From: Labyrinthula sp. Ha | Lineage: Eukaryota > Sar > Bigyra > Labyrinthulida > Labyrinthulaceae | Reading direction: 5' to 3' | Assembly: GCA_015227615.1 (NCBI GenBank) | Contig: JAALGZ010000043.1 | Span: 235,642-299,641 of the forward strand | DNA length: 64,000 nt | Translations under genes and position numbers: made by a program | Notes under the pieces: generated by a model | Databases searched by the model: none | What the model was told of the DNA's origin: nothing | What the model saw: the letters and a program-made list of their open reading frames with translations, nothing else | Part shown: positions 1-49,157 of the stretch, piece after piece | Numbering within the stretch: position 1 is the stretch's first letter | How the letters are laid out: every line of letters begins with the position of its first letter

Positions 1-3000
1 ATGAAATGGGGTTGTAGCGAACACAATGAACATATTCGGATGAAGTCTTGAGCGAGCTGCAGTTGTTGATTCTATTAAGCTGGAATCGATGCTGACAGAG
101 TTCGTTCCCTTTTCTTTGATATTTCTATTCAGCTGCATCTTTGTATTTCTAGGCCCAGTGTGTTTAAAAGTGGAAAACTTTTTCTTTTGCAAAAGCAGAT
201 CCGAGTTTCTATTGAGCTCCAGGCATGTATGCATAGTTATTAGCCAGTCAGCTTTGCTGAAATATTGGCAATCGTCTAATAAGAGAATTATAAAAACGTC
301 TGGTTTTCTCAAGACGGCATTCAAAATTTCAACAAGGAAGCCCAGAGTTTGTTTGAAAGCCTCATCTACTTGACATTTCTCCCCAGCTGGGTCCCAAAGA
401 TCTAAAGCTTAGGCAAAACAAAAATATACATGAATCGCACGAAAAGTATTTCTTTGGAAGCCTTCTAAGATAAGAAGCTGCGACAGGCTTAGGTAAAAGG
501 CTTAGAACCTGGGATATAACATCGCGCCAAACAAAGGCATATCGGTGCTGATTTTGAAAAGATAAAAAATTTCACCTGTTTCATCATCTCCACACTACCA
601 CTGGCGCTGACAATAAAAAATTTAGTTGATAAACCTTTGAAACTATAGGACTCTGCCCTCCCTACTTCTTGAAACCCATTTTTCGCTGGAATGGCCCCAT
701 ATTTGCTCTTAAGTGTACCATCTAACAAGTCCAGGAAAAAGCTTTTTCCTGCACCGCTGTTTCCAATGAGACCTATGGTGGAGACAGTGCCAGACGTTTT
801 CTTGACTCCATATATTTGGAGGAGATATATATCAAGATAATAAAGTATCGTAAGGTCAAAGCGAGAGCTATAAGTTGTTACCATGGGACTAGAGTGCTCC
901 TGCAAATAAATACCACTAGTCAGCTTTGAAGGCATTTCAATGCTCAATAGGGTTTCGGCCTTCCGCTTAATAAGATAGCCCTTACTATACGCAGGTTGAA
1001 ATATTTTCACGAGTTCAACTTTTCCCTTGAGCTTAATTGGGGGCAAAGTTTCGAAGACAAGTGTAGAATCAACAACACTCACACTACTTCTTACTTCTTC
1101 ACTGCACAAAATACACCCTGTAAACTGCATATTCTTTTTCATGCTGAGCTTAGAAGCTGCCTGCATCAACCTCGCTGAGGTATTTACCACATCACCAAGA
1201 ATTGAGTACTCCCGCCTACTCCCACTTCCAACAGGCCCTGACAAAGCTTCCCCGCTGGTCAACCCGATATAACAAACTTTTCCGCGAAACTTTTCTTCAG
1301 CAAGAAGTCGTGTGATTCTCTCTAACCCCTGTTGGGCCTCCTTGTAAAGTGTTTTCGAGTGCTTACACTCATTTAGCTGGAGATGCTTTAAAATTAATGA
1401 CTCAAGTGTCCCTTCATCAAAAAGATTGTACCCTAGCTTCTCGTTACAGTACTGAAGCAAGACTTTGATTGGAAAACCAGCTAAGAAATAGTCCAAAGCT
1501 TCGGTTATTATATTGTTAAGTCGAAGGATTTTCAATTCATGTACAGCCTGTAAGGCAAAAAACATTGCCCTAGCTGGGTCATTATAATGGGTCAAAGGAG
1601 ACAATCCAAAAACCACAAGTAAAGTAGAGCCCTTGTCATCAATAAGAAACTTATTAATGCTGCCCTCTAAGCCATATACAATCTTTTGCACTATGACAAA
1701 AGTTTCCTGGACAGATTTTAATATCTTTTTGATCCTCTTTTCGGTATGAGCTACCTTAAAAGAATCTCGTATTTTTCTACGCTGTACTTTTTTCAAACCT
1801 CTTTTCCGCAAAACTCTCGCCATAGCGCGTTCAAAGTAAATCTTTACGAGATCATTTAAGAATCTGTTAGGAATACTGGATTCAAAAGCTTCCACAAAAC
1901 CACTGGAGAACATATCGTTCATTGACCTTTCACGAAAAACCTCAGCTAAAGCTTTTAGAACTTCTAGATTCAGATTTACAAAGCAAACAGCAGCTGTTCT
2001 GACTTCAGATGCCCTGTACATATAGAAAAGCAAAATATACCAGGAACTCATTTGTTGGTCAAGAAAAGGTTTCACCGCGGCTGGAACATACAACTTCAAC
2101 GCTTCAATTTCCAGCTCATGCTGAAGAAGAGTTTTTCTTACGGATATTTTCTTTAACCTTCTTCTGTTTCGTAGCAACTTCACGTAGGCATTGCTCTTAC
2201 AATGTTTCCCTATTTCTACGATTTCAACCCTATCCTGTACTTTTTCTCGCTCTGATGATTCTAAAGTCAATGAGGAGCATGTCCCCTTTTTTGGCAAGTT
2301 GGTTTTGTGGAAGGACTTCCCTGCTTTCAAAGCAAAGCTTGATCTCCTTTCCAAAGGTGCCTTGGAAGAAACACGGATTGAGCCATTCATGAACTTTTCA
2401 TCTGAGGGAAAACGCTCAAGACTTCTTCCTTGCCTAAGACCTCTAAAAAATGAGATACTGCCTTTCTTTCCTCTTAGTTTCCACTCGTTTACGTTCTTAT
2501 CAGTGAACTTCTTCATCGAGCTCTTTGGATCCAATTGTATACTATCCTTCCTCTTGATCTCTTCTCCATTAAAGTTATTTTTTATGAAATCCCATACTTG
2601 AGGTGAAACAATAGTATCTCCAGGTTTGCATAGTGCTTCACAATCAAAAGCATCTAAGAGTGCTTGTCCACAGAGTGTGTATTCAGCTCTCTTGCAAAGT
2701 CCACCTAGATGCATCATTGTCACCATCTCGCAGCCAATACCCACTTTTACCGAAAAACAGACATTTTTCGCTAACTCAGCTCCATGAAGCTCTTCTTGAA
2801 TTTCTAAAGCGCATTGGGCCGCCCTGCAGCACATGTTTTCAAGATCCAACTCTTCTTCTCCACTATTTCCTTTCTTGTATGCAGGCTGCCAGAGAGTGAT
2901 TAAAGCATCACCAGCGAATTTGATTACATCTCCACCACTTCCATTGAGCATTTTAACAATTCTTTCAAAATATCTATTCAAATAAAATCCCAACTGCTCC

Positions 3001-3242
3001 ACTCCATTTTCAGAGTTATCCGCTAGCATTTCAGTAAGAGCTGTAAATCCACTGACATCAATAAAAACAGCTACTGATTTAAAATATTGAACTGCTGGAA
3101 CATTAATCCTTCCCTGTTTCTTCTTTATATAAGCGGATATGTGTTCAGGTACAAAGTATTCTAACTGTCCCTCTTGAACATTTCCCCCTTGTCTTCCTGA
3201 AACAGGAGATGATTTGCCTATCATGCTCTCTAAATTTTTCAT
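1..3242 (-). CDS. Soluble adenylyl cyclase-like protein (ADCY10/sAC type), 3' end beyond the window
   Basis: Tandem class III cyclase followed by an NTPase domain, the layout of soluble adenylyl cyclase, which makes cAMP and is often bicarbonate/calcium-regulated and ciliary. Three exons join in frame: 3242-576, 547-430 and 401-1, giving at least 1062 residues. C1 has both metal aspartates (D62 in FIDVSGFTALTE, D112 in KFAGDALI). C2 (about 530-700) has a Lys in DDKGST and the Asn/Arg pair in GDVVNTSARL (N687, R691), so one complete catalytic site looks intact. A P-loop (GLIGNSGAGKS, about 833) follows. After the introns come HRYAFVWRDVISQ and a Walker-B-like FIILLLDDCQYF, matching the AAA/NACHT-like part of sAC. 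Without the two 28-nt introns the frame would stop at 489. The C-terminal region lies to the left of base 1. The family call is strong; actual bicarbonate regulation is not visible. Confidence 0.88.
402..429 (-). other. 28-nt intron 2 of the cyclase gene
   Basis: Begins GTATAT and ends CTTTAG on the minus strand, phase 1. Removal joins ...YFSCDS to LWDPAGEKCQVDEAF and then to the Walker-B-like segment, open to the window edge. A competing donor 11 nt upstream (GTGCGA) would give 39 nt; the 28-nt form has the better donor and the right frame. Confidence 0.75.
548..575 (-). other. 28-nt intron 1 of the cyclase gene
   Basis: Begins GTGAAA and ends AAATCAG on the minus strand, phase 0. Removal joins ...MMKQ to HRYAFVWRD, the expected sAC continuation. 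Retention leads to an early stop. Confidence 0.82.
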
Positions 3243-3540
3243 TGATATTACTTTGTTCTAACGGATTTTTCCATTCTTAGATTATTTAAGGATACTTAAG
3301 ATACTATAATTATTCTTATTGCTTATCTGTTAGAAATTATAATAGCTAATACAACATGGCATTACCCGCTAATATGTGTAGAATAAAATTGGAGAGTACA
3401 GCATGTTTTCGGAATAATATTTATCTACGCTGGCGTATAATACGCCACTCTTCCAATTCTAGCAATACCACAATTGCGCAAAATAAGAAATCAAAAAACC
3501 AACAATTAAAATTAAAATTACAAATGAAAAAGTAAGAATA

Positions 3541-3715
3541 TTCAAGGCATATCGATTTTCAAGCAAGAATGATCAAGGGAAAATGATTTTGTACGAAGCA
3601 GGGAAGAGTGACAAGGATCATCAAGCAAGAATTTTCAAGGGAAGACGAATAACGAAATTCAAGCATCGTTCAAGGATTCAAGGGAAAGCAAAATTCAAGG
3701 TTATTTTATTCAAAT
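3541..3715. repeat. Degenerate CAAGG-rich tandem repeat
   Basis: TCAAGCAAGAAT followed by TCAAGGGA occurs at 3559 and again 62 bp later at 3621. Further TTCAAGG and TTCAAGGGAAAG units follow to about 3715. The rest of the spacer lacks this density. Confidence 0.45.
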
Positions 3716-3971
3716 CAATATAAAAAGATATGAGTTCAACGAATAAGGGAAATGAAAGAAAAATAATTTTTACAGAACTAGAATATTTTGTATTAGCCTT
3801 AAACCACTTAAGTTTTAAATTTTAATTTTAAGAAAAATCTTAATCTTCTCAGTTTCAGTTTTCAAAATCATTTGTCTTAAGCTTCTAACTATGTCAGTTC
3901 ACAAATATATTTATAAACGTTCAGATGTTTTTTCAAGTTTCTGTATTCAACCTATGGAAAAAGATTTAAAT

Positions 3972-4027
3972 CCATCCTCATCTTCATCGAGGGCCGAGTG
4001 GGGAGGGAGGGCCGAGTCATGGGGGCG
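3972..4027 (+). repeat. GC-rich dispersed repeat, copy A
   Basis: Starts CCATCCTCATCTTCATC and continues into a G-rich stretch with two GGCCGAGT motifs. The first 17 nt are identical to the reverse complement of 13702-13718, and the following ~35 nt are recognisably related (GCCGAGT versus GCTGAGT, CCGAGTCATG versus CCGAGTAATG). Confidence 0.5.
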
Positions 4028-6542
4028 ATTTTTAAAGACGCGGTAAGCATGAAAGGCTCTCCGCTACGCTAAGGTCAGGAAAATTTACATTTTATTGTGT
4101 TTTAACTTTAAGAGGTATCAAGTAAATATTAAGTGTACTTCACTTTTTCCTCTGCCCCCTCTATATTTTGTCTAAGTATGGGCTGGGGTTCATAGTGTTG
4201 TGCTTTGAAGTTCTGCTATTAAGCTTCCGTTAAGCTTTATGGAATTCCATTAAAAATTACTACCGGTACGCTATTTCCTTATCGCCTTAAAACCCCGTAC
4301 AAACCCTAACGGAAGAGTGGCGTTTTTAACTCTGGAGTGTAAGAATCCGGTTCCCATGTTTTCACTTCAGCGTTTCTCACGTCATTATTTTCAATGATTT
4401 TTTCAAATTTCCCAAAATATAATGGCGAAAGTTAAAATCTAAACTAAAATATAGTCGAAAAGATAAATGTTAAAAGATCAACGAAGATGAATTTTAAGTA
4501 AAGGGGAGACTAAGGAAAGCTTCCAAGCTGTCCTCAATTGTATCAAAGTACAAGAATATATTGTGCTTTGTCATAGATTAACGAAAATATCAACATATAA
4601 AAGTATCAAGTCAACTAAAAGTCCAAGTTTTTTACCTGCGTATCAGAGAACTCAAACTAAGAACAAGAAGAACTCATGCTTAAGATGAAGTCAAAGAGAA
4701 GACTCCATCGACTCTATTGTTAGCTACTGAAATGTAACACATGCTAGAAGAGCGTTCAATAATTATTCGAAGCTGATCCGAAGTGGATCATCTCAAGGAG
4801 CCATCAGACAAGGCTTCGATGGAGGTGATGATAAATGTTTCCCCTTTTGACCGTGTACAGGTTTAAGTACAGCTATTAGAAAGTATGCTTTGGTAAGATA
4901 AAGGGCTTTCTAATTCAAGGATGAACAAAAGGATTAGAGTCATTTCATATTTCTTAAATAGTGGTGAGAATCGTAATGTAAAAGTGTATGGTTGAAAGGT
5001 TTGAAATGTGTCTGTATTCGTTAAATGAAAATAGTTATGAAAAAAACAAGAAGAGGGTTTTAAAATTGAAAGGTATGTTTGTACCGTTGGAGACTTGTAA
5101 ATGTTTTAAATTGAAACAGACTTTTTGATTAAAGGGTTAGTTACAGAAATTACTCTTTCGATTTTTAATTAGGAGGTTGGGTGGTCTACCATTTCTGTTT
5201 AGATCAATGAAAGTTATGATTTCAATTTAAACCAAACCGGTACAAGGTTCTAGTTTTAGCTCAAAAATATTTCAAGAGGTGAGAGAGTGTAGCTGGCTTA
5301 CATTCAAAACATATACTCCACGGAGGGGTTGAGGCAGAATCCGAAGTTTGAAATTAAAAAGTCCAAATTAAAGATTTGAATTGGAGAAGAGGAAGCTCAA
5401 ACTTCAAGAGAAAAATATTGTTAAAGATTAGGAATGAAAGCTTGGACGTGAAGCATTAGCCTCGACCTCGACATCTCCCTTGAATTTTGTGTTTTTTATG
5501 ACAGGTGATATTTTATTCAGTGGCCACTTTTGTAAAAAACTTTTTTGATGAGCAGAAAACTTCTGAAATGCACCATCTAAATTTTAACTTAAAGACATTC
5601 ACATCATTTGGGCTGCAGCAAAAGCGTTTCTCCATTGTTCATCGGAATGAGAAAGTTCGGTGCAAAGCAACTAAAATATCGACAGGAACCTTGAATATTT
5701 TGATAATAATTTATTTGGAGCTTTTAGGTTTTTCAACTTTGGGTCATGAACATTAAACTCCGTTGTGTCAGACACCGATACAGGAAGTCTACCAAGACTT
5801 GTAAAAAATTTTTATGTAAAAGATGATCTTGACATTTCCATCTTCCAGGAAAAAAATAATTTTCTAGATTGTAGGCTAGTGTTTATTAGTACATACACTA
5901 CCAAACTGTTTGCAGGAAGATGCATGTTCTTCCACTTAGAATATGAACATGTAAGAACAATATTTCCTTTCTCCTCGCAAAGATTTACGATGTACGATAT
6001 TTTACCTTACTGATCAAAAAACTTTAGCTTCAGTTTCAAATCTTTCTGTTGGGATAAAGTAACTATAAACTTCACAATGTTTATCTTGAAAAATTAGAGG
6101 ATCCCATCAGATAAGGAGGAATCTTTGCAACTCAGTCTTTCAATTTATACAGGATTTCTTAGTTCAAACTTGTTAATAAGATCACCTTGATTAGTTACCA
6201 CTTATCCAAAATACCTCCCCTTTGTGATATTTCTAACTCTTCTTTAGATATAAACTGACGGTGAGTGGGCTTGACCTGTTAAATGAATTTGCTTAAAGAA
6301 ATAAAATCTTCTGAGTAAATGTCCAGCAAATAGTATTCTTCTCCTTTTTATTTCCTAAGAAAACTATACTGGACATTATTTGGAAAAATTGTTAAACGAT
6401 CTTTAACAGAAGGGACGAGGCTTGAGAGAGGTACAAAGATTTCTAATATCGTTTTAGGTGCACTGTTGTGGAAGGTAACTGAATTTTTCCCAGATAATAA
6501 AGTTTGGCAAGATCCAAGCGATGTTAGAACATGATTAACACA

Positions 6543-6890
6543 TTACACATGATTTGCATTTAAGTCTCTAACTATTCGAGGTAGAGCTTTGGGTCCATAG
6601 CTCATGAATTCTTTGACGTTTCCCAAGCGAAGTACTTTGAGGCCTTTGATGATATCCGGGCGATCTCGGTTTCCATAAAAGTACATTGAAAAAATGTATT
6701 CATAAGATAATGCACATTTAAAGGAAAATAACAAGCACTTGCAGCCCGAAATATCTTGTGTTGTATCAATTTGCATACAGTGGGAATAGATACCAGCAAG
6801 GTGTTTTTGAATATTAATTTGATATGTTAGTCCATTTAATTGTGCTCGATCATTTGTAGTTTTGTTGAAATAAATCTTAGGAAAATTCAT
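6543..6890 (-). other. Unassigned 115-codon open frame
   Basis: ATG-started open frame of 115 codons in otherwise empty DNA. It has five Cys and many aromatic residues but no domain I recognise. No splice-linked continuation was found. It may be a lineage-specific gene, a decayed fragment or chance. Confidence 0.2.
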
Positions 6891-9800: not shown

Positions 9801-10701
9801 GATAGTTTTTTACTAGATTTGTAACCTATTAAATCAGCAGCTAAGGATCAACTTCCGTAATTGGCTGGAAAATTTGTACCTGCTTTATTGAAAATGATCG
9901 GATACCTCCTCTAGTTTGTTTCTTAGATCATTTATAGCACACCAAGAGTGTTGTCATATTTTCCTAGAGAATATATCTTATGCCATTAGTATAAGTGTGT
10001 TTAAAGGGCACAATATTTTGAAGTGAAGAAATAGTTTATTATTGTGTACATGCTAGGAAACACTGTAGGCTAGTACCTTGTTTTAGCAGTTGCTAAACAG
10101 AGACAAAAGCAACAAGAGTTAATTATACCAATATTAGAGCTATTTTACTACGGATTAACTATACACCTTACAATGCACAAAGAAAACTTATGTATATAGT
10201 AAGAGTATTGAGCTCAACGAAAAGTTTTGCTATGCCATGGTAATTATGATCTCTTTCATCTAAGATCCTTGGAGAAATAGAATTCTCCGTAATCAATTAG
10301 GGTCAAGAAACTAGAAAGTGTTAATAATATTAGGAGTAGGCAAAGGGAAAGGAAGTTTTAATCACTTTTGTCGGTCGAGTTTTACTGCACCAATGTTATT
10401 GAAAGTTACTGTTCTAGATATTACTTATCCTTTTATTTCAACGTGTTCCTGGTATTGAGACTTTTACTCTCATGAAGATATACTTAAGGAAAATTCCGAG
10501 TATGAAAAAACTATTTTCCTTCTATTGATTTAACTCTTGTTGTTTAAACAGATCTCTCACATGATATGTATTGATTCTGCGAAAACTAAAATCTAGAAAT
10601 ATCCCAGTACGAAAATTTCAAGAACATGAATACTTGATTTACATCCTAATAAATTATATACTATAACTCTCTATATCCTAAAGGAAAATATTTTTTGAAA
10701 C

Positions 10702-12263
10702 CTAAATAGAAGATCTATGAGATATTTCATAAGCTTGTCGTTTATAATCGCGTTTTCCTTTTATTCTCCAAACTAAATAAACTGGAATAACCATAGCAAA
10801 AGAACCAATAAAAAAAGAAAACTGTCTACCTGTAAATAAATCCCCTTCATATCTTTCTGGTGGAATAGTTGATACAAAAGTTAAACTTGCCATATTTATC
10901 AAAGTTCTATCTATTCCAACAATATGTCCTTGTAAAGCAATATTATGATCATAAACATATTCTACTTTTAGTTCATAAACACTAATTTGCCAAATAAGAT
11001 ATGCATCTAAAGCAATAGCAACTCCAATTAAGAATAATATATCAAAAAAGTATATATCAAAAAATAAGCATATTGTACAAAGTAACCAACAACTTGCACC
11101 TAAAGAATATCCAGCAAGCGTAAACTCATAAAAGTTTTTTTGTTTACCAAGTTTTTTTCCAAGAATATAAGAAAGAGGAATAGCAATAATAATAGATAAG
11201 CCAGCAGCAATAACAGCATAATCACTTACAGAAGGAGGAACTATTCTTGAAACCGTTACAAAGGCAAGATTAACAGGACCAGCTATAAGAAAATCAGCAA
11301 AGCAAAGAGTTGCATAATTTGAATGAGAAAACATAGTTTTTATAGCTTTTGGAAAAGAAATACTATTTTTAATATTTGCCGTTGGTCCAGGTTTAATAGA
11401 AGGTTTCTCACGAATAATAATAACTCCAAGAAATCCAACAAAACTTACAAGAATAGCTAAAACAAGGTTCATACTATAAAATAAAAAAAATAATAAAATA
11501 TATACAATTCAATATCAGTTTCAGCAAAACAACAAAATTGTTCTTCTGCTTCTTCAGTACATAAATATCCACCAGATTTTTCATCAAAGGTAAAATTAGA
11601 TATTTCAAATTGAATAATAAAATCTTCTTTACAACTTTTTAAAGTAATATCTATAATATCTTCACCAGTTGTAAAAAATACTCCTAACATTAAACTAGCA
11701 CCATTTCCAAGAACTCCAACTATAGCACCAATAGCTATTGCTATAGGTCTTTCAACTGGTGGAAACCAATGAGCAACAACACGAAGTGTACAACACACTA
11801 TCATAGTATGACATAAAGAAGAAAATACTTTAGTTACTATAATAATATTGAAATTATCTTTTGCAAAATAAAATAACCAACTATTAGCAGCACTTAATAA
11901 ACCACCTAAAACCATAATATTTAAGCCATATTTTGAAACAAAATAACCACTTAAAGGATAGAAAAATAAAGAAAGAATATTTCCTAATACTGTTAGAAAA
12001 TCTATCCCTAATTCGTTTGGTGGATTAAACTCATTCGTTGTATCATAAAATTCTGCAAACTCTGGAACTAAAGCAAGATATCTACTTCCTTGTAAACCTG
12101 AGCAAAAGTAAAGAGAAGCAAACACAGTTATTACAGCCCAACGATATGGAAACACTTTGTATTCAGTTTGTTTACTTAGGCTATCTCCTTTTTTTGTTGA
12201 TAATTTGTCTATCTCCTGGTCCTCTTGTAGGGATATTGGTGTTGGTTCTAATTCATTTAACAT
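10702..12263 (-). CDS. Major facilitator superfamily transporter, SLC49 (FLVCR-like)
   Basis: Two exons (12263-11506 and 11473-10702) join across a 32-nt intron to give 509 residues. The protein has an acidic cytosolic N-terminus and many hydrophobic segments spread over both halves, as in a 12-helix MFS carrier. The opening YRWAVITVFASLYFCSG and the later VAHWFPPVERPIAIAIGAIV resemble FLVCR/DIRC2-type SLC49 carriers, whose reported substrates include haem, choline and pyridoxine. Substrate cannot be read from the sequence. A Cys-containing loop (residues about 215-250) lies between the halves. Third codon positions are almost all A or T, more so than in the cyclase or CFAP44 genes. The gene is isolated, with over 7 kb of spacer on each side. 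Start is the only suitable ATG (12263). Confidence 0.83.
11474..11505 (-). other. 32-nt intron of the MFS transporter gene
   Basis: Begins GTATATATTT and ends ATTTTATAG on the minus strand, phase 2. Removal joins two MFS halves in frame (..ETDIE-F-MNLVLAIL..). Without it the first half ends shortly after at 11469. Confidence 0.85.
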
Positions 12264-12329
12264 TATACTTGTATTTTAATAAAGCAATGAATTTTCTTTG
12301 TGTATTTTCTTATGAACTCCTCTCTTAGA

Positions 12330-13020: not shown

Positions 13021-13277
13021 TCTTAAGTGTTAGCAGGAAAATGATCTAGGAACCTGCTTGAAATGTATTGTGTCCTCTTATTTTCTTCACATTAACCACA
13101 AAACCTAAGAGAAATAACAATTCTTTCAGACTCAAGTTTGGAGTCATAGCTGCTACGCATTCATAAAGCTCAATTAAGTTAGCAATACTACATGAGTAAC
13201 TACATTTAGCTTGCATAATTTCTCAGTCATAGACCCATTCGACGGTGACAAACTAACGTTTTAGGAAACAAAGCTTT

Positions 13278-13583: not shown

Positions 13584-13663
13584 GAAGTTACAACCGGTGA
13601 TAGCTTCTCTTGCAATTCGAAATTAATCCTTGAAGCAAGAGTGAGCAGTGATTTTTGGAAGTG

Positions 13664-13718
13664 GCCCTCATTACTCGGTACTCTCCCTTCACTCAGCCAA
13701 TGATGAAGATGAGGATGG
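13664..13718 (-). repeat. GC-rich dispersed repeat, copy B (inverted relative of 3972-4027)
   Basis: On the minus strand it starts with the same 17 nt (CCATCCTCATCTTCATC) and continues with a related G-rich stretch. Because the copy lies 9.7 kb away in opposite orientation, it fits a dispersed element rather than a tandem duplication. Confidence 0.5.
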
Positions 13719-23049: not shown

Positions 23050-23299
23050 CTTCCTGTCTATTTGCAAGGAGAGAGCGCGGTTTTCGAGTTTTGGTAGCTG
23101 TGATTTCGTAATTAAATTAATTTGTATTTATCAATCTCAAAATCAAAGCAGAATATGAATGTAGAACATAATTATAACAAATTTTATCATACCAGTATAG
23201 TTATAATAGGATTATACCGAAATATTATGTTTTAAGTATCAAAGACTAGTAACGTTATGTGCGCAGAAACAGTTCAAAATATAACTTATACGTTGAAAA

Positions 23300-25213
23300 A
23301 TGATATCAATAGAAGGAGTTTCTGAGAAAAGTTCACTTGAACTAAAATATCAACAAAAGTTCATAGCAATTGAAACTTTTAAACATTATGTACTATACTT
23401 GGAGAAATCAAAGATAAGAGGTCACAAGATTGATGGGTCTGTTAATCACACAATGTTTGTGGCCGCTGCACCAGAGGGTAACTTGTTAAGAAGCCTTCAC
23501 ATAACCTCGAACACAGGAAGAATTTTTGCTACAACTTTAAAGCAAACGTTACTATGTATAAATAGAACATTTTTGGATAGGATGCAAGAAGAAGTTACAC
23601 TCTATCCTGAAAAGTCTCTATTACAGTGGAAAGTAAAGCAAGTTGGAACTGGATTTGATCATACTCTAGTTCTTACAACGTCTGGAGGAGTGTATGGTAT
23701 TGGGAGAAATAAAGAGAAACAAATTCTTCCACTTGAAGATAATGAGTACTATGAAGTCCCAGCTAGAATAAAGTTCTTTGATTCTTCAAAAGTTAAAGTT
23801 ATTGCTGCAGGAGGTAATTCCTCAGCATGCTCGCTTATTTCTAAAAATGCAAAATACTTTGATGATCTTGCAGATCAACAGGAGAATACATGGACTACTT
23901 TATCTTGGGGAAAGAAGTTGTACCATATTGAAGAAACAAACTCATTTGGGTTTAGAGCTCAGAATAGTCTGATAAACAAACAAATATCTTGTCTTAGTAT
24001 GGGTATTTCTCATGTTATTGCTACCATTCATCCAATAGGTACTGTATATAGTTGGGGAGATAATACTTATGGACAACTTGGAGTAGGTACAAATTTTTCA
24101 TATAAACAAGCAACTAAAATATATGGAATATCTAATATAAAGAAAGTTATTGCAGGTGATTATTCAACCTTCCTGTTCACAGATACTCATAAGATCATCT
24201 GTTGCGGACTCATGCTATATAGAGAGAACAAACACTTTGTCCAACTTAAATTTAGCCCTTTAAGTTTTACCACTGGAGAGGATATGAAAATTTCAAACAT
24301 CTTGCATCCACTAAAGTATACACTTATTGCAGAAGAGAAGATCACTATTCCACCTGAACAAAAGCCTGGTTGGTTTGATTTGGCTAGGTTGGAAGAAGAG
24401 TTTTCAATCAAGCTCTCAAACAGAAAAAAAACAGGTAACTTTTTATGTGAAACTATTCTTAGCTATTTGTACCAAAAACCGTCCAGCAAACGAGGTATCT
24501 TCGTTGCTTTGTGGGCCTGTCAGTCGAAAAGGAGTACTTGAGTGGCAGTTAAAGTTTATTGTTCCTGGAAGAAAACAAGCTAATTTTCTACGGTCAGATG
24601 TGTCTATTGGCATAGCCCAGCTACAAGAGAGTTTTTTAGTGGAAACTTATTCAGCTTCAGATCTTATATTTCAGTATCTTCTTCACCAGGTATATATTTC
24701 AGCTATATAAAGTAGGATGGAACAAAGGAGTCATTTGGATACTTGAAAGAGTGGGGTGAACCAATACCACCAAATCAAAATATAAACTTGTTTCTAGATC
24801 TCGAAAAAAATACTTTATCAATATCTTATGATAATAAAAAACCAAAGCTCTGTCATTATTTAAGTAGTGCAACAGGAACATCAAACTCCAGCGATGCAAC
24901 AACCTCAGAAGAAATGCTTCCAAAATATTGCGCTATAGTCAAAATAGTGCCGCAAAGAGGAATAAGCGTCCAAGTCACCTTTTATCAGCACTCATCAAAA
25001 AGTAAGGTAAATAAGAAATATGATCAGCCTAGGTTGATTCAGCGATGTTCCGCAACTAACGCTAGGTTTGATAAAGTTTTGATATATTGCTCTGTTTGTA
25101 ACTCCAAAGTTTGTAGGTTCTGCGCGCGTCAATACCATAATAAACACTGCCTTAAAGTGATAGTAAATAAGGAATATTGGAAATGCTCTAACGAACAGAA
25201 TGAAGCTGTTTAA
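23300..25213 (+). CDS. RCC1-repeat / SPRY / Cys-His zinc-finger protein
   Basis: Three exons (23300-24434, 24463-24689, 24716-25213) give 619 residues. RCC1-type blades are visible as GFDHTLVLTTSGGVYGIGRN (about 115-135) and GISHVIATIHPIGTVYSWGDN, then YGQLGVG (about 235-262), with weaker blades around them. The region from about 378 to 490 reads as a B30.2/SPRY-like fold (GVLEWQLKFIVPG; NINLFLDLEKNTLSISYDN) and is only recovered when both tiny introns are removed. The C-terminus (about 563-602) has a Cys/His cluster, YCSVCNSKVCRFCARQYHNK, resembling a B-box or UBR-like zinc finger. RCC1 plus SPRY occurs in large ubiquitin ligases (HERC, MYCBP2), but no HECT or RING is present. A role as adaptor in protein turnover is inference. 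Its last 26 nt overlap the convergent karyopherin gene. Confidence 0.75.
24435..24462 (+). other. 28-nt intron 1 of the RCC1/SPRY gene
   Basis: GTAACT...ATTCTTAG, phase 1. Removal shifts from a frame that stops at 24541 into the SPRY-like frame. Confidence 0.82.
24690..24715 (+). other. 26-nt intron 2 of the RCC1/SPRY gene
   Basis: GTATAT...AAAGTAG, phase 0, the shortest intron here. Removal joins ..YLLHQ to DGTKESFGYLKEWGE in frame; retention brings an in-frame TAA. Confidence 0.78.
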
Positions 25214-28568: not shown

Positions 28569-28622
28569 GGATGCTATTTATTTGAAAAAGTACTGAACCT
28601 ATAGTAATGCTATATTGGCATT
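28569..28622. promoter_or_regulatory. 54-bp shared intergenic region of divergent karyopherin and POP5 genes
   Basis: Only 54 bp separate two divergent start codons, so both 5' UTRs and core promoters must fit here or overlap the neighbouring CDS. It is AT-rich; no canonical TATA box is obvious. Confidence 0.55.
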
Positions 28623-29093
28623 ATGGTAAGAGTAAAGAATAGATGGATTATATTCTATTCGGATAGGTATTATGATAGATTAACCGCTTCTACTTTGAAC
28701 ACAACTATATCTGAATTATTAAAAAGGGATTCATTTGAGATAGAACAGATACTTCGTAAAGATATGTTCTCTATTATTGGTATCTTGGTTGACAAACCAC
28801 AAAAGAACCGGCAACAAGAAAGACGAAGGGTACCATGTTTAGTTTATTAACTTTAGCAGCTAGGGAAACGTCAGTTGATTATTTGTAAAGTTGAAACGAA
28901 AATGTCAAGGTTGTTTATTAATTTTCTCAAGATACTTCAAACTGGTGAAGGCGAACTGCTACGTTTCCAAACCCTTCACACTGCTGGAAGCAAACGTCAG
29001 CTACAAAAAGCTGTGGCAAGACTTTACCAGGAAAAGCAAATTCAAAACAACTCAACCGTGTCCTTAATAAATAAATTTCTGGACCGGGCATAG
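28623..29093 (+). CDS. POP5: RNase P/MRP protein subunit POP5
   Basis: Two exons (28623-28829, 28857-29093) encode 147 residues, close to the usual POP5 size. MVRVKNRWIIFY matches the MVR-K-RY-L start of POP5/Rpp14 proteins. The second exon holds GKRQLIICKVETKMSRLFIN, corresponding to the G-x-x-L-R-C-x-x-E/D-Y segment, and FQTLHTAGSKRQLQKAV, matching the LHVGGTIRTCQK motif. POP5 is a core protein of RNase P (tRNA 5' processing) and RNase MRP (rRNA processing) in nucleus and nucleolus. The stop abuts the stop of convergent CFAP44 with no base between. Divergence is high, but motif order and size agree. Confidence 0.78.
28830..28856 (+). other. 27-nt intron of POP5
   Basis: GTACCA...ACTTTAG, phase 0, followed directly by CAG, so a TAG|CAG tandem acceptor could add or drop one Gln. 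Although its length is a multiple of three, retention gives an in-frame TAA. Confidence 0.82.
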
Positions 29094-33689: not shown

Positions 33690-36280
33690 GTTTTCTAACT
33701 GTCAAATTTTTTCATAACCATTGAAAAATATAATTTTGTTGAAAAGTGTTTTCTCATATCGAATAATATTATTTTGAAGATAGTTTTATAAAATAAAAAT
33801 TATATTTATATTTTCTTTTTCATCAAACAATGTATTTATAATGATTTGAAAGGCATTCATTGTCTAGGGTGAAACATCTCTTGTCACAGTTCAATTATTC
33901 ACGAAAAGCTTCCTGATTCCTCTTGTATTCATGATAGTTTTCGGTATCAGACCAGTAAACTTTTTCCTTTTCTCGTTTCCCGTTATTCTTGATGACATAA
34001 AAACTCTCGGTTGTATTTCCCAAAACTCAACTAAAATAAATTGATTCTAATTGTTATACAATTTCTTTAAATTTTATTTTATAATAAATTTTACTCGGGA
34101 GTTTAACTGAAATTCATTCGGATTTTCCCCATCACAAACGATTTCTCATATTCATACAAATAACGCTTGACTGCGCGAGTGGACAATGCATATTGATGAA
34201 CTAGAACTAGGAAAAATCTCTTAAGTTTCTTAGCATTGATGATGATCATACTCTTTATTAGTCTTTCTGAAGTTTTTTTTTTAATGAGTAAGGAACTGTT
34301 TTCAACGTCTCCTCTTATTCACGAAAAGGTGAAGTAGACAGCGAAAATAAACCAAGGCAAGAGGAGATTGAACTTCTATTTAAGCTTTATAGTTATTTCA
34401 GTACTACATGAAAATAGAGATAATGCTTGATACATATGCACATCGTATCATTGGATATTTATTCCAAGAGTGACAAGGAATCTTGACCATTCTTGGTCTT
34501 AATTCGCTTCGTTCACAACAATGTATTATGATGTTTTCAAAGAAGTAGATAAATCTTAGTGACCATAGGTTTCCTTAGCATCATACAAATCTGTGACTTA
34601 CCTTCCCCCTAACAGAAGTGAAATATTTGCAAATGGTGGTGGAAACTGTGTGAGAAACTACAGCAGCAGCCTTCAGATATGAAGCATTATATAGTTACAG
34701 TAGAAAGAATTGGTTGATTAGTTATGTCGCCAGCGTTTATTTGGGGTATAAAAATAAGTGCTAATTAGGTTTTCCCAAAACAAGAATTCCTAAATATAAA
34801 AAATCATGTCTTGGAGATCTCTACAGGAAAACACCGCTCCACTCGACGCCTAAGTACATATACCAAGTATAATAATGTATTCGTAAGGGAACTAGAATCC
34901 ATATCTAACTAAACAGTTTATTAAACCAATCTCGTACACTAAAAACATTTTATTAAAATAAGCAAAGCCACCAATTATTAAACTAAAAGAACTTATAGTA
35001 AAGAGGAAGGCAGGTTAAATAGATATTTGTGATCGAGGTCGCTGTAAATTTCATTTGCCGAACGAGGTTGCGTCAGCATCCGAGTCGGTACAAAACCAGC
35101 GTCACAAGATATGTACAAGGCTTTATAGCGACGCATGAATCGGATCTCTTTGGTGATGTATTGAAATAAATTCGACACAACCTTCAAGAATAATATCGAG
35201 ACAATCAGATAACATTCGCCAAAAGTTTAGAGTTAAATTCTTTTGTCCTAAATCGGAAGCATTCACACAAGTTGCAAGATGACTGTGGTGGCAGATCAGA
35301 ATAATTCATACAACTTAGGTTTCGACTCAACCTCATACTCGACCAGTAAAAAAAAATTTCGAGCGAATTCCACCAAAATTATGGCATTTCAATTGAGTTT
35401 CGGATGAGTTAGGGGATCTGAATGATTAGTTCAGAGTTTGTACAAGATGAATATCGATTTTCAGATCTAATAGGACGAGTGATCGGTAAAAGGTGATGAA
35501 TTTCTTGTGTTTAAAGTCGACTGTAATATCAATTTTACAGGATGTGCAGCTACAATAGCTTTAGTAAGTGTAATAGGATTTCTGTAGCTTCACTCGACAT
35601 TAAGTTAAATGTTTTTTGGACGAATTACCTGTTTGTTCCCCCAGGAATATTATTTACGCAAATGACCTATTCTGTATCAGATAGGCGGCAACTTCCAGAA
35701 AACTGGGGTCTTACGGAATAAAAAAGTCCATGCCCGTCTTGTACTACAGAGATATACAAAGTACTTTAAGAAAGCTCATTCATAGCTGCTTACCCGCTAT
35801 TTAATATTTGTTTGAAACAAAATTGAATACATAAACATTCATTTGTGTATTCTTAACATCAAAGAATAGTAGGAGATAACAGTTTGCTACTTCACAAGAC
35901 ACCTTCAACAAATGCTCTACAGCATCATCCCGATTATAGCTTCTATAAACCTAAAAGAAAATAAACAAATGTTTGAACTTTAAATACCTTTCAACTTACT
36001 GATCATTTTTTATATATATAAATTGATTTTGATTTTATTTTTCTTCCTCAAATACCTATATATCTTATAGGTGTTTTTTTATCAGGAAGAAACCAATAAA
36101 GGCTAGTACCCGAAAACAGATAGACTTTGATATGAGTTAAAGATTTCCCGTTTCTTTTTAAATTCCCGTAATATTATAATTTCTTGATACTCGAATAAGA
36201 TTAATGATGACGTGGCACAAGAAGAATGTATGATATTTTACTAATGAACTGCCCAACAAATAAACAACAAACAAACTAAA
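33690..36280. other. 2.6-kb spacer
   Basis: Mostly anonymous AT-rich DNA. A direct repeat TTATTCACGAAAAG occurs at 33895 and 34315. The stretch 35000-35200 is less AT-rich and holds an open frame of 64 codons on the minus strand (34993-35187) without a recognisable domain. The last 80 bp form the lipase promoter region. Confidence 0.5.
36208..36217 (+). promoter_or_regulatory. ACGT-core element TGACGTGGCA upstream of the lipase
   Basis: Located 64 bp before the lipase ATG. The TGACGTGG form is bound by bZIP factors and resembles the unfolded-protein-response element of animals. Whether it acts here is inference. Confidence 0.25.
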
Positions 36281-37638
36281 ATGGTTCCTATTGTTTTAGT
36301 CACAGGTTTTCTAAGTCCATCAAATTATAGTATTCTTCAAACATATTGGGTATTTGTTTTATTTTTTGTGAATAACAGGGTGAAGCTGCAAAACTGAGTG
36401 AAAAAGATTCCCCAATCATAATTGCACAAGTTGCTTCGATAGGCAGTGCTCACGATCGCTCCTGTGAGCTATTTGCACAGCTTTTAGGTCAAAAAGTAGA
36501 TTTTGGGAAGGACCATTCCGATTATTTCAAACACAACCAGTATGGAAGAGATTACACTAATGAGGCTCAACATCCGAACTGGAGTGAAGAGAAGCCAGTT
36601 CATCTAGTAGGTCATTCGTTTGGTAGAAATACAATAAGATATTTTGTCTATTTAGTTTCTATTGACTATTGGAAATTTGGAACTTCTACAAAATGGATAA
36701 AGAGCGTAACAACTTTGTCTTCTCCTATAAAAGGAACTTTGCTAACATATGCACTAGGTGGAGAACATAAAATTGGGGAACAGTGGGTAGATAATTCATA
36801 CTTGGTGAACGAGGAACAGAAAGAATATTTTTTCGAGTATCTTTCACCTAGTTTTCTTCTTTACGCGTTGGTTCATTTTGAATCTATTTTTTCTAACCCT
36901 GTTACTAAAAAAGTGTACGACGCTGGATTAGATCACTTTAATCTTAGACAGGAAGGAATTTCTGGGCTTTTTTATGCCTTGAGAGATGGAAATAGTGGAG
37001 GAGGAACACCACCTGTTTGGCGAAGAGATAACGCCGCATTTGATTTGTCAATGGAACAAGCGCTTTTACACCAGAAATTGTACAAAAAACATGTTGATCA
37101 TGTTAAATCGAACTTAAGAGAATATCATTTCATAGCAACAAGACATCAAGATTATTCTTTGAAAGATTCTAGAAAAATATTTCGTAATCACCAGAAATCA
37201 AATCCAGGGTCCTCTACATTTTACTCCTCGGTCATTGTTTTTCGTGACATTGCAACAAGTTGGTTAAGTTCAAAGATTCAGAAACATGTCATGGATAATA
37301 ATTTTGAAAACATGTCTTTTTTCACTAAGCTTGGCCTTAGAAAAAGACTTATAAACTCAGATGGACTTTGTTCTAGTTTTTCTCAATACTGTGATAACTC
37401 AATACAGTTAGATTTAAAAGATATTGACAAAACTTATTTCTCATCTGAAGTAGCCACTGAAAAATGCAGTTATGACTTGAACTCATCTTTCAAATCTCGA
37501 ATGAATGTTGCTGCAGGGATTCATCGCATTGAACTGAAAAACAAAAATCACTTTGGTATTGTACCATTTCCTGATAACTTTGTGCAACAAAAAAAGTTTT
37601 TTACTAACTTGTTTAATGTGTTAAGAACCTTAGACTAG
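36281..37638 (+). CDS. Alpha/beta-hydrolase lipase (family I.5-like, GHSxG)
   Basis: Two exons (36281-36349, 36379-37638) give 442 residues. The short first exon supplies the oxyanion-strand motif MVPIVLVTGFLSPSNYS. The second carries the nucleophile elbow HLVGHSFGRNT (S103), a probable acid in INSDGLCSSFSQ (D351) and the catalytic His in NKNHFGIVPF (H414). The spacing and the NDG-x-V-like and DHF/NHFG motifs resemble the large bacterial triacylglycerol lipases of family I.5 and related eukaryotic enzymes. Esters of long-chain fatty acids are the likely substrates. No signal peptide is visible, so a cytosolic location is suggested. The sequence between S103 and D351 probably forms lid elements. 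Single gene with spacers on both sides; the spliceosomal intron argues against bacterial contamination. Confidence 0.8.
36350..36378 (+). other. 29-nt intron of the lipase gene
   Basis: GTATTTG...AATAACAG, phase 0. Removal joins ..LQTYW to GEAAKLSEKD in frame; it brings the ATG and oxyanion strand onto the lipase body. Confidence 0.85.
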
Positions 37639-43600: not shown

Positions 43601-46600
43601 ACCACTTATCCATGGTATCTCAGATTATGCAATGAATCAAGTATTAGAAAGTCACGTGGAAATCGTGAGTAAAAAGCCCTATAGTGACAATATAATATAA
43701 AATAATACCTTTTGGAATGTCGAATACTATAAAGAAGAAAATTATATATTACCTGAATTAGTTTGTTCATGTTGCGCTATCTTGAACCTAATATGTCAAA
43801 CAAAGTAATATCTCATACAGAATAGGTCGTACCATTTGATTTTATCGGAAAATAAAGATATCATTTCAACAAAACAAGTAACAAAAATAAAATGAAATTT
43901 ATTGCATGAGCTTGTCCTGGTTAGTTATCTGTGCAATGTAGAAACTTTTCTAAATCTTTAAAGGTATACAAAATACCGACCTCATTCTATGCAATTTCAC
44001 CAAACCCAAGAACCATTCGACAGCACAACTTCATAAGGGAATATTGAGACCGCTATATTAAGTAAATATGCCATGAACACCAATATAACCATGTTAAAAA
44101 ATCTCTCTACAACTAATACCAGTGCACCACAAATATGCATAAGCATTCAAAAACTGTGAGGCAGAATAAGATGCCTAAATCTCTTTATATGGGGCCAGAA
44201 GAGGTATATTCGAGAACAAAGCATCCCTCTATCATAAATCCCAAGAATCCGTTTGCTGCCCGGGTCATGGACAATCATAGCTAGATACGGGAGCAATCTA
44301 TAAACATATCCCAACCCATTAGAAATACATAAATGCTAGCCCCCACTAAATTATCTAATCTTGAGCATGTTTCCGCTAATTCAATTTCGTCGTCTCGTCA
44401 TATGACTGTATTGCAAGAGACAACAATGTGTGATCACTAATTTCAGACAAATTGTGTTGAGAATCTGTGCATAGCAAGAGCTGAAATGAATAAAACATAA
44501 AACCCAAGTGCTGAGCCATATAAACCTAATAGCTAAGATCAGTTCCATCCTCTGCTGATAACACATCAATATATCTACTATGGAAAACTAAAAATCCACA
44601 CACAGAAGGATAAGACCCGAAACAAAAGCTTGGAACAACCTTGATATATTCCTGGTATCATACCTCAAAACGAAAATAACCTCTCTTACTTTACATTGTG
44701 TCACTGTGGCGGCTATTTTATACTCCAACTTATGTCAAAATCTGATATACCGAAAGAATACCATGATGTATAAATAAGAGTCTGAAATTTAGTGAGCATC
44801 TATGTACAACTTTTACTTCAACATATATATACCAGTCTGCAGCCATTGGAAGAACGGACCCTTAGATTGGATATCATCAGCTGTTCTCTATTCCTGTGTC
44901 ATTTCTCTAGATTTCTTAAGATCAATTTGATAAATCTTCAGCATTTTAGGCATAATAACGATGTTGGGCACAAAAAAATCAACATATTTCCTTAGAGCCT
45001 TTATAAATTTGTGTCAACTGTCAAAGAAAAAAATGAAAGTAACATAGCTAGATAACAATAATACCAATAATGAAATACGACCAAAACACTAAAGAATACG
45101 TATTCCATAGAATGCATCTGCAAATTATCATATTATAGCAGTTTTTTCACTAGTCGGGTATTGGGTAAGCACAGATTCCCAATTTACTTCTGGTATTATA
45201 TATATAGTGAAATCTTCTTCCAAGCATACTATTGTTTTACAACTAAGGTTCTCAGTTCACCTCCCATTACGGTTATTGGTATAATTTTGTACTGTCTAAG
45301 GTTTGTCTTAACCTTAAATCTTGTGTTTTATATTCCTTTGCTTATTGCTAAGCCTTAGGGAGTAGTTAGCACTAGGTTTTCTAAATCTGGCCCAAACTAC
45401 TAATGTTCGTCATCTTCTTTCCATCAGAAGACCTGATCCGTTAGATCCTATGAGAAATATTTTAATATGGAATTGCCAAATATTGCCTTGAATCTCAATC
45501 AATACTTTGTCAAATGATAATTTTTAACCTTTGAGCAATCCCATAAAGCCACTTCTTGAATAACAAGGCCTCACTTAACCCCTGAAAAAAAGGTGAGAAC
45601 TTTCCCCGACTAAGATCAACCAACAATATTCTGTCGTTTAGTGAAAACGGCCAGACAACAATACTTCTACTTCCCAATATGGTCTATATCCATGTTGCAT
45701 ACAACATCTCCAGTCAATTCAGCATCCAAGTATGGCAGCTAATAATGAATGGAGTACATCTAGAGTCTCCACCATGAGATCTGTGACTTTATGTCTTGAA
45801 TCGAATCCTATGCCTCGACTGCCAAATATAAAGAACTGAAGCCTTCAGGATATTTTCAAAAAATTATAATATTGTTTGATTAATTACAAAATAATTATTA
45901 TTGAAATATAATTAAAGTGCTTCTATCCTCAAGAAGCGGTTGCAAAGTTATTTTTGACATGGTATTATTCTCTTCAGGAATAAACTTCTTACTACCCTTC
46001 AATATCCACTCTAATTTTCTCTTTTTCGCTTTGCAGGATTTTGTCAATCTCTTACAGCTTTCTTTCTTCAGATTAATTGGATGCAACAATCTTCGCAATT
46101 GACCCCCAAAAGTGAGCATTGACTAAAGTGTTACCTTAAACGGTGTTGTGTTCAGAAAGATAAAGAATTGTGAATCCTTGATAAATGTATAGAATACATG
46201 GCTCGTTTCTACTTCTCAATCAACCAAAGCAAAGAAATTAATAATAATTAACCTTGGATTACTACAAAAAATGTTTCAAACGAGCTCTGAGTGCATCCCC
46301 GTTGGCAGTATTTAGACTATTTCTAACAACTCAATACTATGGATTCATTTAGAGTATTGCTACCTTTCAGCACCTTTTTTATCTATGAAACTTTTAAAAT
46401 CTTGTTTGGTTCATAAAAACATTTGATAAGCGTTATTATATTTTAATAGTTTGCATTAAAAGTGATATTTGTCATACTTCATTGAAAAAACATTGACTTT
46501 ATGCTTGGTATGCGTTCGATTGAGCCCCTCTAAAAAGTTCCGCAGATCTTCATTTGCGCGGATAACTCTAGAAATCACCCTATTATATATTAACTTTAAC

Positions 46601-47236
46601 CTAACAAATCCTCCTTGTGCGAACTCACTATACTTAACCCATAGGTTACTATAAAATCTGTCAGCGTTGTTTGTTTTTATGTTTTATAGATAAAATAGTT
46701 TAACAATTAGGGATGCTCAAGTGATGTCAGGTGTTGGGACAGTTTTCATTATTTTTTTGACTGTCTTATCTAGATTCGTGAAACTGAACATCTTGTGGTT
46801 TCGTTCTGAAGGGATACTTCAGTGTTGCTGGTGCCTGGGCATCCCTAGTACATTATATTTATGTATCGTATAAGATAATACACTAACTGCTATATTATTG
46901 AAAATTTAATGTGCATCTTAACTATGGTAATACAAATTAGTATGTAACATAGTAATTACCACGACTTATAAAGCTGCGGCAATTGGTATGGTGTTGTAAA
47001 ACTCAAACAGAACATAGGATTCTTAATGCAATATCTTCTTTAAATGATATCACATTATCTGTACTGAGCCTATATTTCCTTTATCCTTTCATAAGGGTAT
47101 TTTCGATGTCTAAACACTTCAAGTATTATCAATACGTCAACAAGGTTGGTTTTCAATCCATGGTTCATAAATGTGGGAAGCATGAAAAGAGAACAACCGT
47201 TTAAATTATAGTGTGGATAAGAATATATATTTCTAT
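37639..47236. other. 9.6-kb gene-poor spacer
   Basis: No recognisable gene, tRNA or snRNA was found. Open frames are short and mostly lack ATG; the best is 45898-46119 on the minus strand (73 codons, ATG, Lys/Arg-rich, no domain). A (TA)n tract lies at 41839-41856. A 14-nt word ACTGTGAGGCAGAA occurs at about 40347 and about 44153 without wider similarity. Confidence 0.5.
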
Positions 47237-49157
47237 ATGGAATCTGAACAAAAACGAAATATTACACTGAGTAGACTTCTGCTACGAAAACCAAGAGGCG
47301 AAACTGCTAGAGAACTGTATGAAAAGAAGCACCAAACGAAAGTATACGACTACAAGTACTTAGTTAATCGCAAGTCCAGAAGTTCATACGAAAAGGAACG
47401 AAATAAAAATATTTTTAAGAAAATCTCAATGAAAAAAAGCAAAGAAACTGATCTATCTTCCTCCATCGAAGTTCAGAAGAGGACTGCTGAGTTTGAAGCA
47501 GAGTTTTCATTAGATAAAGCAAGATGGTGTAGACTCATGAAGAAACCTGAAAGTTGTAAGATTTTCACCTGTGCAAAGGGATTTCCACAAATTGCGGAGA
47601 GTTTAACAAAACGAGGATGGATAGAAAACCCCAACCCAAAAAGTGATATTTTTGATTTTTTATTCACAATGAGAGTAAAAAACATAAGAAAAAATTTAAA
47701 AGAGGGACAGATAATAAATAGGTTTGTTAAGACTAGTGCACTTTGTTCCAAACTTGGACTCTTACAAAGTATGAGAAACTTAAAGTGGTTTGCTAATATA
47801 GATGAAGATTCTTGCGTGCCACGTGCATATAACTTAACCAGAATAGTAGGAAAAGATAAGGCGGAAGAAGAATACGCCTTTGCCTATGACTTTCAAGTTA
47901 CTGCCCTTGAAAACTATTTCGGCAAAGTTTTGCACCTACACAATAATAGAAATTTAACAATTTCGTCTAATCTTAATGCGGAAAAAGCGATCTTAGAAGA
48001 CTGTTTAAGACATCTAGAAAAGTATTACTTGTCAAGAAACAGTTTTTTTCAAAAGAGAAGGAATAAAAGTAGCTTCTTAAGCATAGAATTATGGTCGGCC
48101 TTTAAGAAGATCGAAGAACAGAGTGAAGTTCCAGAAATTTCGTTTGAACTTCTAGAGAAGATACTGAAATTAAATCCAGAGAAGGACACCCTGCAAAATA
48201 AAATAAATGGAAAGTTAGGAAAAAATATATGGATAGTAAAACCAGCTGGTAAATCAAGAGGAAGAGGTATAAGGTGTTTTCGTGAGTTGAAAGATATTTT
48301 GGAATATACAAGAGAACCTGTAAGTAGTCAGTGGATAGTTCAAAAATATATTGAAAACCCACTTATTATTTTTGGAAGAAAATTTGATATTCGTCAGTGG
48401 GTACTAGTGTCCTGTTGGAATCCTTTGACAGTATGGTTCTCAACAGATTGCTACCTACGGTTTTGTGCCTCTGATGTAACTTTTTTGTGTTTAATTTATG
48501 TTTTAGTATTCTGTTGAGACTAAAGATTTGAGTGATTGTTTTGTTCATTTGGCAAACAACGCTATATCAAAACATTCAAAAGAAGTTGACTCCAGGTTTC
48601 CAGGAAATATGTGGAGTAAGAGCACGTTTGAAAGTTATTTGAGAGAAAAGTTTCCACAGAAAGATGTTTGGTCAGCAATACAAAGAAAAATGAAAGAACT
48701 TGTTAAGCACTCTATTAGTTGTGTACAGAACATGATAGAAGTATATTCATCTTTGTTTTATACTTAGACACGAAAAGATTCGTTTGAAATATATGGATAT
48801 GACTTCATGATATCTGAAGATTTTGATACTTTGCTAATAGAAGTTAACTCCTCTCCAGCAATGGATTATTCAACTTCTGTTACGGAAACTATAGTGAAGC
48901 AGAGCTTACAAGACTTGCTAAAAGTTATTCTTGATGTTAAGCATGACAAAAAATTAAAACGAAAGAGCTCATTAGATAAAACAATAGATACTGGCTTATG
49001 GGAAATATTGCTGCAACAGAAAGAAATATCAGTAAAACCAGAAAGTTTAGTGTACTTGAAAACCCTACAGATTTCGGGAAAAGAACTTAAATCAAGAAAA
49101 AAAATAAAGAAGAAACCAAAAAAGACCGTAAACATCAAGTTCCACGATACTGAATAG
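47237..49157 (+). CDS. Tubulin-tyrosine-ligase-like enzyme, TTLL3/8 (glycylase)-like
   Basis: Three exons (47237-48475, 48507-48740, 48768-49157) encode 620 residues. The ATP-grasp core is clear: KPAGKSRGRGI (about 334-344), WIVQKYIENPLIIFGRKFDI then RQWVLVSCWNPLTVWF, and the metal-binding E-V-N-S-S-P segment (about 515-520). The long GRKFDIRQW-x-L-x-x-x-WNPLTVWF stretch, the following VHLANNAI and the MWSKSTFESYL segment are typical of TTLL3/TTLL8, which add glycine to axonemal tubulin. Polyglutamylases differ in these parts. A basic N-terminal region (1-100) precedes the fold. The tail after residue 560 is Lys-rich and may bind tubulin. ATG 47237 is chosen over an upstream GTG. The gene converges with the BART gene 12 bp away. 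Confidence 0.85.
48476..48506 (+). other. 31-nt intron 1 of the TTLL gene
   Basis: GTAACT...ATGTTTTAG, phase 0. Removal joins ..LRFCASD to YSVETKDLSDCFVHLANNA, restoring the TTLL3-type order. Confidence 0.87.
48741..48767 (+). other. 27-nt intron 2 of the TTLL gene
   Basis: GTATAT...ATACTTAG, phase 0. Removal joins ..VQNMIE to TRKDSFEIYGYDF. Retention would end translation at the TAG of the acceptor. Confidence 0.86.

Follow-up and report, generated by a model that had tools for sequence, protein, structure and literature searches.

Nearly all recognizable introns in the genome of the labyrinthulid Labyrinthula sp. Ha are tiny, about 26 to 34 nt and mostly 28 to 30 nt, and form a single size class. 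This analysis began with a 64,000-nt stretch of contig JAALGZ010000043.1 (the window, G000:C92:235642-299641) from a 50.84-Mb assembly in 153 contigs with 32.5% G+C. A first-pass annotation, made from the letters of the window alone, had reported nine introns of 26 to 32 nt with GT..AG ends in it. All nine were confirmed at their places and lengths (28, 28, 32, 28, 26, 27, 29, 31, and 27 nt), and each sits at a unique place. Every one starts with GT and ends with AG, five of the nine end in TTAG, and the donors are GTATAT in four, GTAACT in two, and GTGAAA, GTACCA, and GTATTT in one each. A single open frame is left after removal of each. We propose that these are ordinary U2-type introns forming one compact class, read by a spliceosome whose U6 RNA carries AUAGAGA, with the changed base opposite intron position +5, so that a G at +5 would no longer be needed and an A would be favored there. 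We assign this reading a probability of about 0.7.

The single size class emerged from scans of 332,532 bases in 36 loci, including 24 fetched 10-kb stretches and the non-satellite part of the window. A length-neutral scan joined pairs of coding stretches by removing a GT..AG segment of 12 to 300 nt, used no splice-site weights, and excluded the window's satellite as well as six loci that hold rRNA or duplicate small nuclear RNA genes. It returned 59 GT..AG candidates (332.5 kb), 17 of them 26 to 32 nt long, whereas eight decoy dinucleotide pairs put through the same scan returned 43 to 48 candidates each, with 0, 0, 3, 0, 0, 2, 1, and 2 at that length. Introns of 15 to 16 nt, as in the ciliate Stentor, were not found as a class, the 12- to 19-nt bin holding 3 of the 59 candidates against 0 to 4 for the decoys. 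A Viterbi gene finder, applied before the last four stretches were added, agreed with the scan, calling 17 introns at 24 to 36 nt against 1 to 6 for 13 decoys. An earlier local scan had used a 75-nt window, which proved too strict and gave zero GT..AG candidates.

Motif counts over the whole genome agree with a narrow size class. The two strands hold 645 and 635 instances (1280) of the pattern GTATNT..TTTTAG at a total length of 26 to 32 nt, against 422 and 435 (857) of the reversed pattern. This amounts to 183 per length against about 123 in the control, or roughly 420 excess short sites. At 56 to 86 nt there is no excess (1923 and 1888, together 3811, against 1922 and 2043, together 3965). 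With 4 of the 35 curated introns matching the pattern, the genome probably holds a few thousand short introns in total, as a rough estimate. Spacing counts at 26 to 32 nt in the sampled sequence gave 63 against 44.5 for GTAT[ACT]T..T[TC]AG, with GTATAT..TTAG and GTATGT..TTAG also in excess, and no excess for the looser pairs GTA..TTTAG (96 against 100.5), GTAA..TTAG (90 against 91.3), and GTAC..TTAG (40 against 47.2). Separately, another contig (G000:C2) repeatedly shows similar pairs of short-intron-like strings with a spacing of about 110 nt, for example at 35377-35514 and 75059-75196, which suggests a gene family in many copies, each with two tiny introns.

Intron composition was assessed in two sets, one of 18 introns of 26 to 34 nt found without site weights and the other of 35 curated introns. 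The curated set consists of 30 automatic introns that were kept, the nine in the window where not already included, and one read by hand in a LETM1-like gene (L038; this name, like leishmanolysin-like for L040 below, is presumed from the look of the sequence). The automatic calls numbered 43 at 18 to 60 nt with both flanks above 5, and the 13 outside 26 to 34 nt (21, 24, 25, 39 twice, 41, 42 twice, 44, 45 twice, 48, and 60 nt) were excluded from the composition counts. Selection of the curated set relied partly on a donor weight matrix that covers +5 and on acceptor weights from -9 onward. In the weight-free set, position +3 is A in 16 introns, +4 is T in 13, +6 is T in 13, and -3 is T in 14. 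An A stands at -9 in 11 of the 18 (2.9 expected) and at -8 or -9 in 16. The corresponding count of 31 in the curated 35 is not independent, because the acceptor weights spanned -9 onward. A CTAAC-like branch motif was not enriched over shuffles (TAAC 4 against 1.9, p 0.12; YTRAY 9 against 8.3). With the A informative by position and no motif enriched, the branch adenosine is probably fixed by distance and not by a long motif.

Intron interiors are 58 to 59% T. The suggestion that introns of so narrow a size class can hardly accommodate a branch point or polypyrimidine tract is not supported, given the positioned A in 16 of 18 introns, the T-rich interiors, and the presence of SF1 and U2AF-large homologues described below. 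Nine of 30 introns have a length divisible by three, and four of these nine contain an in-frame stop. Retention would meet a stop inside the intron or in the following 90 nt in 25 of the 30. At least 23 of 75 predicted genes have an intron of 26 to 34 nt. Taken together, the layout would be a GTATNT-like donor, a U-rich body, a branch adenosine 8 to 9 nt upstream of the 3' end, and a short run of U leading to AG, within ordinary U2-type introns of a 50.8-Mb protist genome using the standard code. Splicing would proceed by intron definition, with the entire intron recognized as a single unit by a spliceosome that keeps U1, U2, U4, U6, SF1, and a U2AF-large homologue.

Judged by its homologues, this spliceosome is of the U2 type. 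U1 has three loci, with a canonical 5' end (AUACUUACC); its 66.2 bits fall slightly short of the cut-off, 69.5. U2 also has three loci and contains the canonical GUGUAGUAUC. U4 and U3 genes were found close to U1 (L034). The first-pass annotation had proposed a search for SF1 and U2AF genes, and homologues of both are present: SF1-HH matches at E 5.8e-18, and the U2AF-large homologue at E 5.1e-73, covering model positions 67 to 506 of 510 in one 464-amino-acid frame at 249.6 bits, below the family's curated cut-off of 310.3. We had also predicted that METTL16 would be lost, given an altered U6 target. This was rejected by a Pfam-family member at E 3.7e-41; the family also holds bacterial members and matched bacterial genomes in a control, which makes the member found here a candidate orthologue. 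As a point of genome structure, a U1/U2 gene pair 4.6 kb apart occurs as mirror-image copies on G000:C96:200293-222920 and once more at C135:72694-77477.

The U6 gene departs from the canonical sequence in its ACAGAGA box. At E 0.001 there is one match to RF00026, at one locus, with 59.9 bits against a cut-off of 44. Its box reads AUAGAGA in place of ACAGAGA. This is the sole substitution from the box through GCAUGGCCCC in the RF00026 alignment; GAAGAUUAGCAUGGCCCC is intact, and the AGC triad and overall family profile are as in canonical U6. Yeast introns pair at +4 to +6 with the ACA of the U6 box (PMC4383343), which places the changed base opposite +5. Earlier work describes ACAGA as invariant in the 240 species examined, 230 Saccharomycotina and 10 outgroups, with Cyanidioschyzon merolae cited there as the exception (Parker et al. 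2023), and states that every known U6 RNA has ACAGAGA (PMC3510501). Mutational work on U6 and the 5' splice site is reported from 1993. Within the literature searched, represented largely by titles and the starts of abstracts, we found no U6 box altered at the C position. A search for the variant in viral and prokaryote collections found none, which says little; in one of these the canonical form was not found either. It is the U6 change that looks new, the tiny size class itself being of an already known kind.

We then asked what occupies the facing position in the introns. In the curated 35, +5 is A in 14, T in 10, C in 7, and G in 4; G is thus no longer dominant. The interior composition predicts 5.7 A (p 0.0007), which is suggestive of a preference for +5A. 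Position +6 is T in 27 of the 35 (p 0.02). Counting wobble, an AUA box pairs at +5 in 18 of the 35 introns and an ACA box in 4. Pairing at every position from +4 to +6 is reached in 12 introns with AUA, in 6 with AGA or AAA, and in 3 with ACA, and GUAUAU pairs fully with AUA. As U1 is unchanged, U1 pairing offers no explanation of +5A. From these few introns, U6 and +5 may have covaried. If so, recognition of the 5' splice site would have been re-coded in nature: the U6 box would have changed from C to U and the introns shifted from +5G to +5A (GUAUAU) while U1 stayed the same. We regard this joint evolution as a real prospect, at somewhat under even odds.

The most serious alternative accepts the same short introns and takes the U6 change as drift that was tolerated after recognition at +5 had weakened, with +5A following from an AU-rich donor context. 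Several points weigh against our reading, and a number of them speak for drift in particular. GTATAT (16 against 7.5) and GTATGT (10 against 4.5) are about equally enriched at 26 to 32 nt, so +5G is not selected against. In the weight-free 18, +5 is A in 6 (p 0.06), T in 7, G in 3, and C in 2. With a hypothetical AGA box, 17 of the 35 introns could pair at +5, nearly as many as with AUA, though only 6 at all three positions. The curated 35 were themselves built with a matrix covering +5. Weak donors also occur in other tiny-intron lineages: Stentor and the Bigelowiella nucleomorph combine weak donors with ACAGAGA, so weak donors do not require a U6 change. The branch motif that was not enriched, the U2AF-large score under its cut-off, and the METTL16-family member likewise count on this side. 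Drift fits less well with the A count at +5 in the curated set, which stands well above interior composition, and with the high +6T, which indicates that the donor is still read. On balance we consider drift a plausible but lesser candidate.

It is fairly unlikely that a real class of longer introns was missed by the scans based on open reading frames, whether among short exons, in untranslated regions, or beyond 600 nt. The scans spanned 332.5 kb and reached 300 nt, or 600 nt on a smaller amount of sequence; 29 of the 59 candidates exceed 60 nt, and the 13 of 43 automatic calls outside 26 to 34 nt point the same way. Against such a class, the bins of 61 to 100, 101 to 200, and 201 to 300 nt hold 6, 9, and 14 candidates, at the decoy level of 4 to 12, 9 to 15, and 8 to 14, and the genome-wide pattern shows no excess at 56 to 86 nt. 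We read eleven candidates by eye, of which eight were longer than 60 nt and the others had 12, 16, and 25 nt. Among the eight, five had another reading, three could be settled neither way, and zero were proven long introns. Across the eleven, three (L020, L021, and L031) are explained by neighboring genes, one gene (L029) needs no intron, and two long candidates are instead a 28-nt intron plus coding sequence (the leishmanolysin-like L040) and a 33-nt intron plus coding sequence (L038). Another, near 3900-5300 on the minus strand of L018, is a transposase-like frame with an in-frame stop and, by eye, the look of a hAT transposase. Reading of L005, L012, L017, and L027 gave no certain outcome. 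A single narrow size class is supported, with no class of longer introns seen at lengths to 300 nt.

Slightly less probable still is that the U6 locus is a pseudogene or an assembly error and that a working canonical U6 is absent from the assembly. A single locus was found, and assemblies can miss genes. Yet the core is conserved apart from one substitution, and a genome-wide pattern search with N at the changed base and one mismatch allowed found no second copy. Both the stem II part of this U6 and the 5' end of U4 are divergent. A cofold of the two predicts the usual two stems at -36.9 kcal/mol. The stem II segment reaches -18.3 with the genome's own U4, far better than consensus U6 with own U4 (-8.6) or own U6 with consensus U4 (-9.0); consensus with consensus from Rfam reaches -29.8, and the own pair was equalled by 9 of 2000 shuffles. 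Because the divergent U6 is predicted to pair with the genome's own divergent U4, the AUAGAGA locus is probably a working gene. Finally, the idea that chance gaps, frameshifts, or pseudogenes were taken for introns, as was the case for some candidates such as the L018 frame, is already largely refuted by the decoy controls, the gapless tubulin tyrosine ligase-like (TTLL) junctions, and the common donor, acceptor, and branch-A positions, and we give it hardly any weight.

A single narrow size peak below about 35 nt, with GT..AG ends and U2-type spliceosome homologues, places this genome with the ultra-short-intron genomes of the ciliate and Blastocystis kind. Blastocystis (Opalinata, stramenopiles) has a likewise narrow peak near 30 nt, with a mode of 30 nt in subtype ST1 (54%) and around 32 in ST7. 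The likeness in size drawn by the first-pass annotation is therefore fair. Other features differ: 84.6 to 94.6% of Blastocystis genes have introns, so that introns look sparser here, where the 23 of 75 genes are a lower bound, and the Blastocystis-type polyadenylation motif TGTTTGTT occurs in the 60 nt after none of 72 predicted gene ends, these ends having been chosen for having a stop codon. Stentor coeruleus resembles our case in using the standard code, in its tiny and uniform introns with a branch A at a constant position, and in retaining U2AF; it differs in having introns half as long (15 to 16 nt) and a U6 that keeps ACAGAGA. Mikrocytos (16 to 17 nt) and the Bigelowiella nucleomorph (18 to 21 nt) also have a narrow class, but a shorter one and in reduced genomes, and the Bigelowiella nucleomorph again keeps ACAGAGA. 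The U6 of C. merolae shares with this one a natural change within the ACAGA box. There, the central A, facing +4, has become U, whereas here it is the neighboring C, facing +5; C. merolae is also without U1, which is present here.

The genetic code bears on this placement as well. TAA, TGA, and TAG end 38, 18, and 16 of the 72 predicted genes, with a finder that assumes all three are stops, and 121 of 132 PF00069 kinase matches contain no internal stop. Reassigned stop codons of the ciliate type were not seen, and a reading in ciliate code 6 leaves frames open everywhere, as expected once stops are removed. The standard stops that had been noted are thus borne out, while the argument that they exclude typical ciliates is weak by itself, since Stentor uses the standard code.

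The window introns lie in genes of a eukaryotic protein set that includes HSP90, cyclase, TTLL, MFS, WD-repeat, and exportin-like proteins. The TTLL gene (47186..49157, plus strand) is the best confirmed. Spliced, it matches PF03133 at E 5.5e-66 and the solved TTLL chain 5vlq_A at E 1.9e-72, with no gap at either junction, and its Pfam score rises from 112.1 bits for the first exon to 223.2. Its introns are 48476..48506 (31 nt, GTAACT..TTTAG), found by the scan without site weights, and 48741..48767 (27 nt, GTATAT..CTTAG), found among the predictions with site weights. Splicing also raises the Lip_C score of the lipase-like gene (36269..37638, plus strand; PF24708, E 4.5e-18) from 55.3 bits for exon 2 alone to 65.6; its intron, 36350..36378 (29 nt, GTATTT..AACAG), restores the frame. 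The MFS transporter gene (10702..12275, minus strand) matches PF07690 at E 3.2e-12 when spliced, its exons taken singly match different MFS models, and its intron at 11474..11505 (32 nt, GTATAT..TATAG) was found also by the scans without site weights.

In the remaining three genes the frame is likewise restored. The adenylate/guanylate cyclase gene (1..3257, minus strand; PF00211, E 1.4e-10), whose spliced frame is open and which extends past the window, has introns at 402..429 (28 nt, GTATAT..TTTAG) and 548..575 (28 nt, GTGAAA..ATCAG, an atypical donor), both also among the predictions with site weights. The RCC1-repeat gene (23297..25213, plus strand; PF00415, E 1.1e-16) has one intron at 24435..24462 (28 nt, GTAACT..CTTAG), predicted with site weights, and another at 24690..24715 (26 nt, GTATAT..AGTAG), predicted with and without them, which holds an inner CAG ending 13 nt from the donor. 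The POP5-like RNase P/MRP protein gene (28608..29093, plus strand) has its intron at 28830..28856 (27 nt, GTACCA..TTTAG). The first-pass annotation had held that each removal restores a known family's order. This is supported for TTLL and lipase; the POP5-like match is weak (best Pfam PF01900, E 0.052, below cut-off; no PDB match at E 10), and the SPRY part of the RCC1 gene has no Pfam match at E 0.001, so the statement holds for some of the genes and not all.

Other features lie outside these genes. The last 11 kb of the window (52854-64000) is a 354- to 355-bp tandem satellite of about 31 copies, roughly 64 to 100% alike, which continues past the window edge and is perhaps centromeric or subtelomeric. 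The sole full-length 18S gene seen (L033 53-1655, G000:C56) is missing roughly 100 nt in the region of the universal 530 loop, and CCAGCAGCCGCGGTAAT with at most two mismatches occurs at one place in the whole genome, on contig C1, in a form that looks mitochondrial. The 18S has a stramenopile-like appearance. The gap could reflect a decayed copy, an assembly artifact, or a strange ribosome. On a further contig (L032, about 1-1375, G000:C49), the 3' end of what by eye resembles a non-long-terminal-repeat retroelement, with poly-A, directly adjoins the 3' portion of an 18S gene, the arrangement expected of an rDNA-specific element.

Introns shorter than 35 nt occur here together with SF1, a homologue of U2AF-large, and U1, U2, U4, and U6 at full length; tiny size alone therefore needs no loss of branch-point recognition genes. 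The U6 change, if it is what it appears to be, breaks the near-universal ACAGA rule, and with U6 alone changed, pairing of U6 at +5 could be separated from pairing of U1 in a natural genome. Should the introns indeed have followed it, nature would have produced across a whole genome the equivalent of the compensatory mutations designed in U6 and at +5, and at a base that wide surveys report as invariant.

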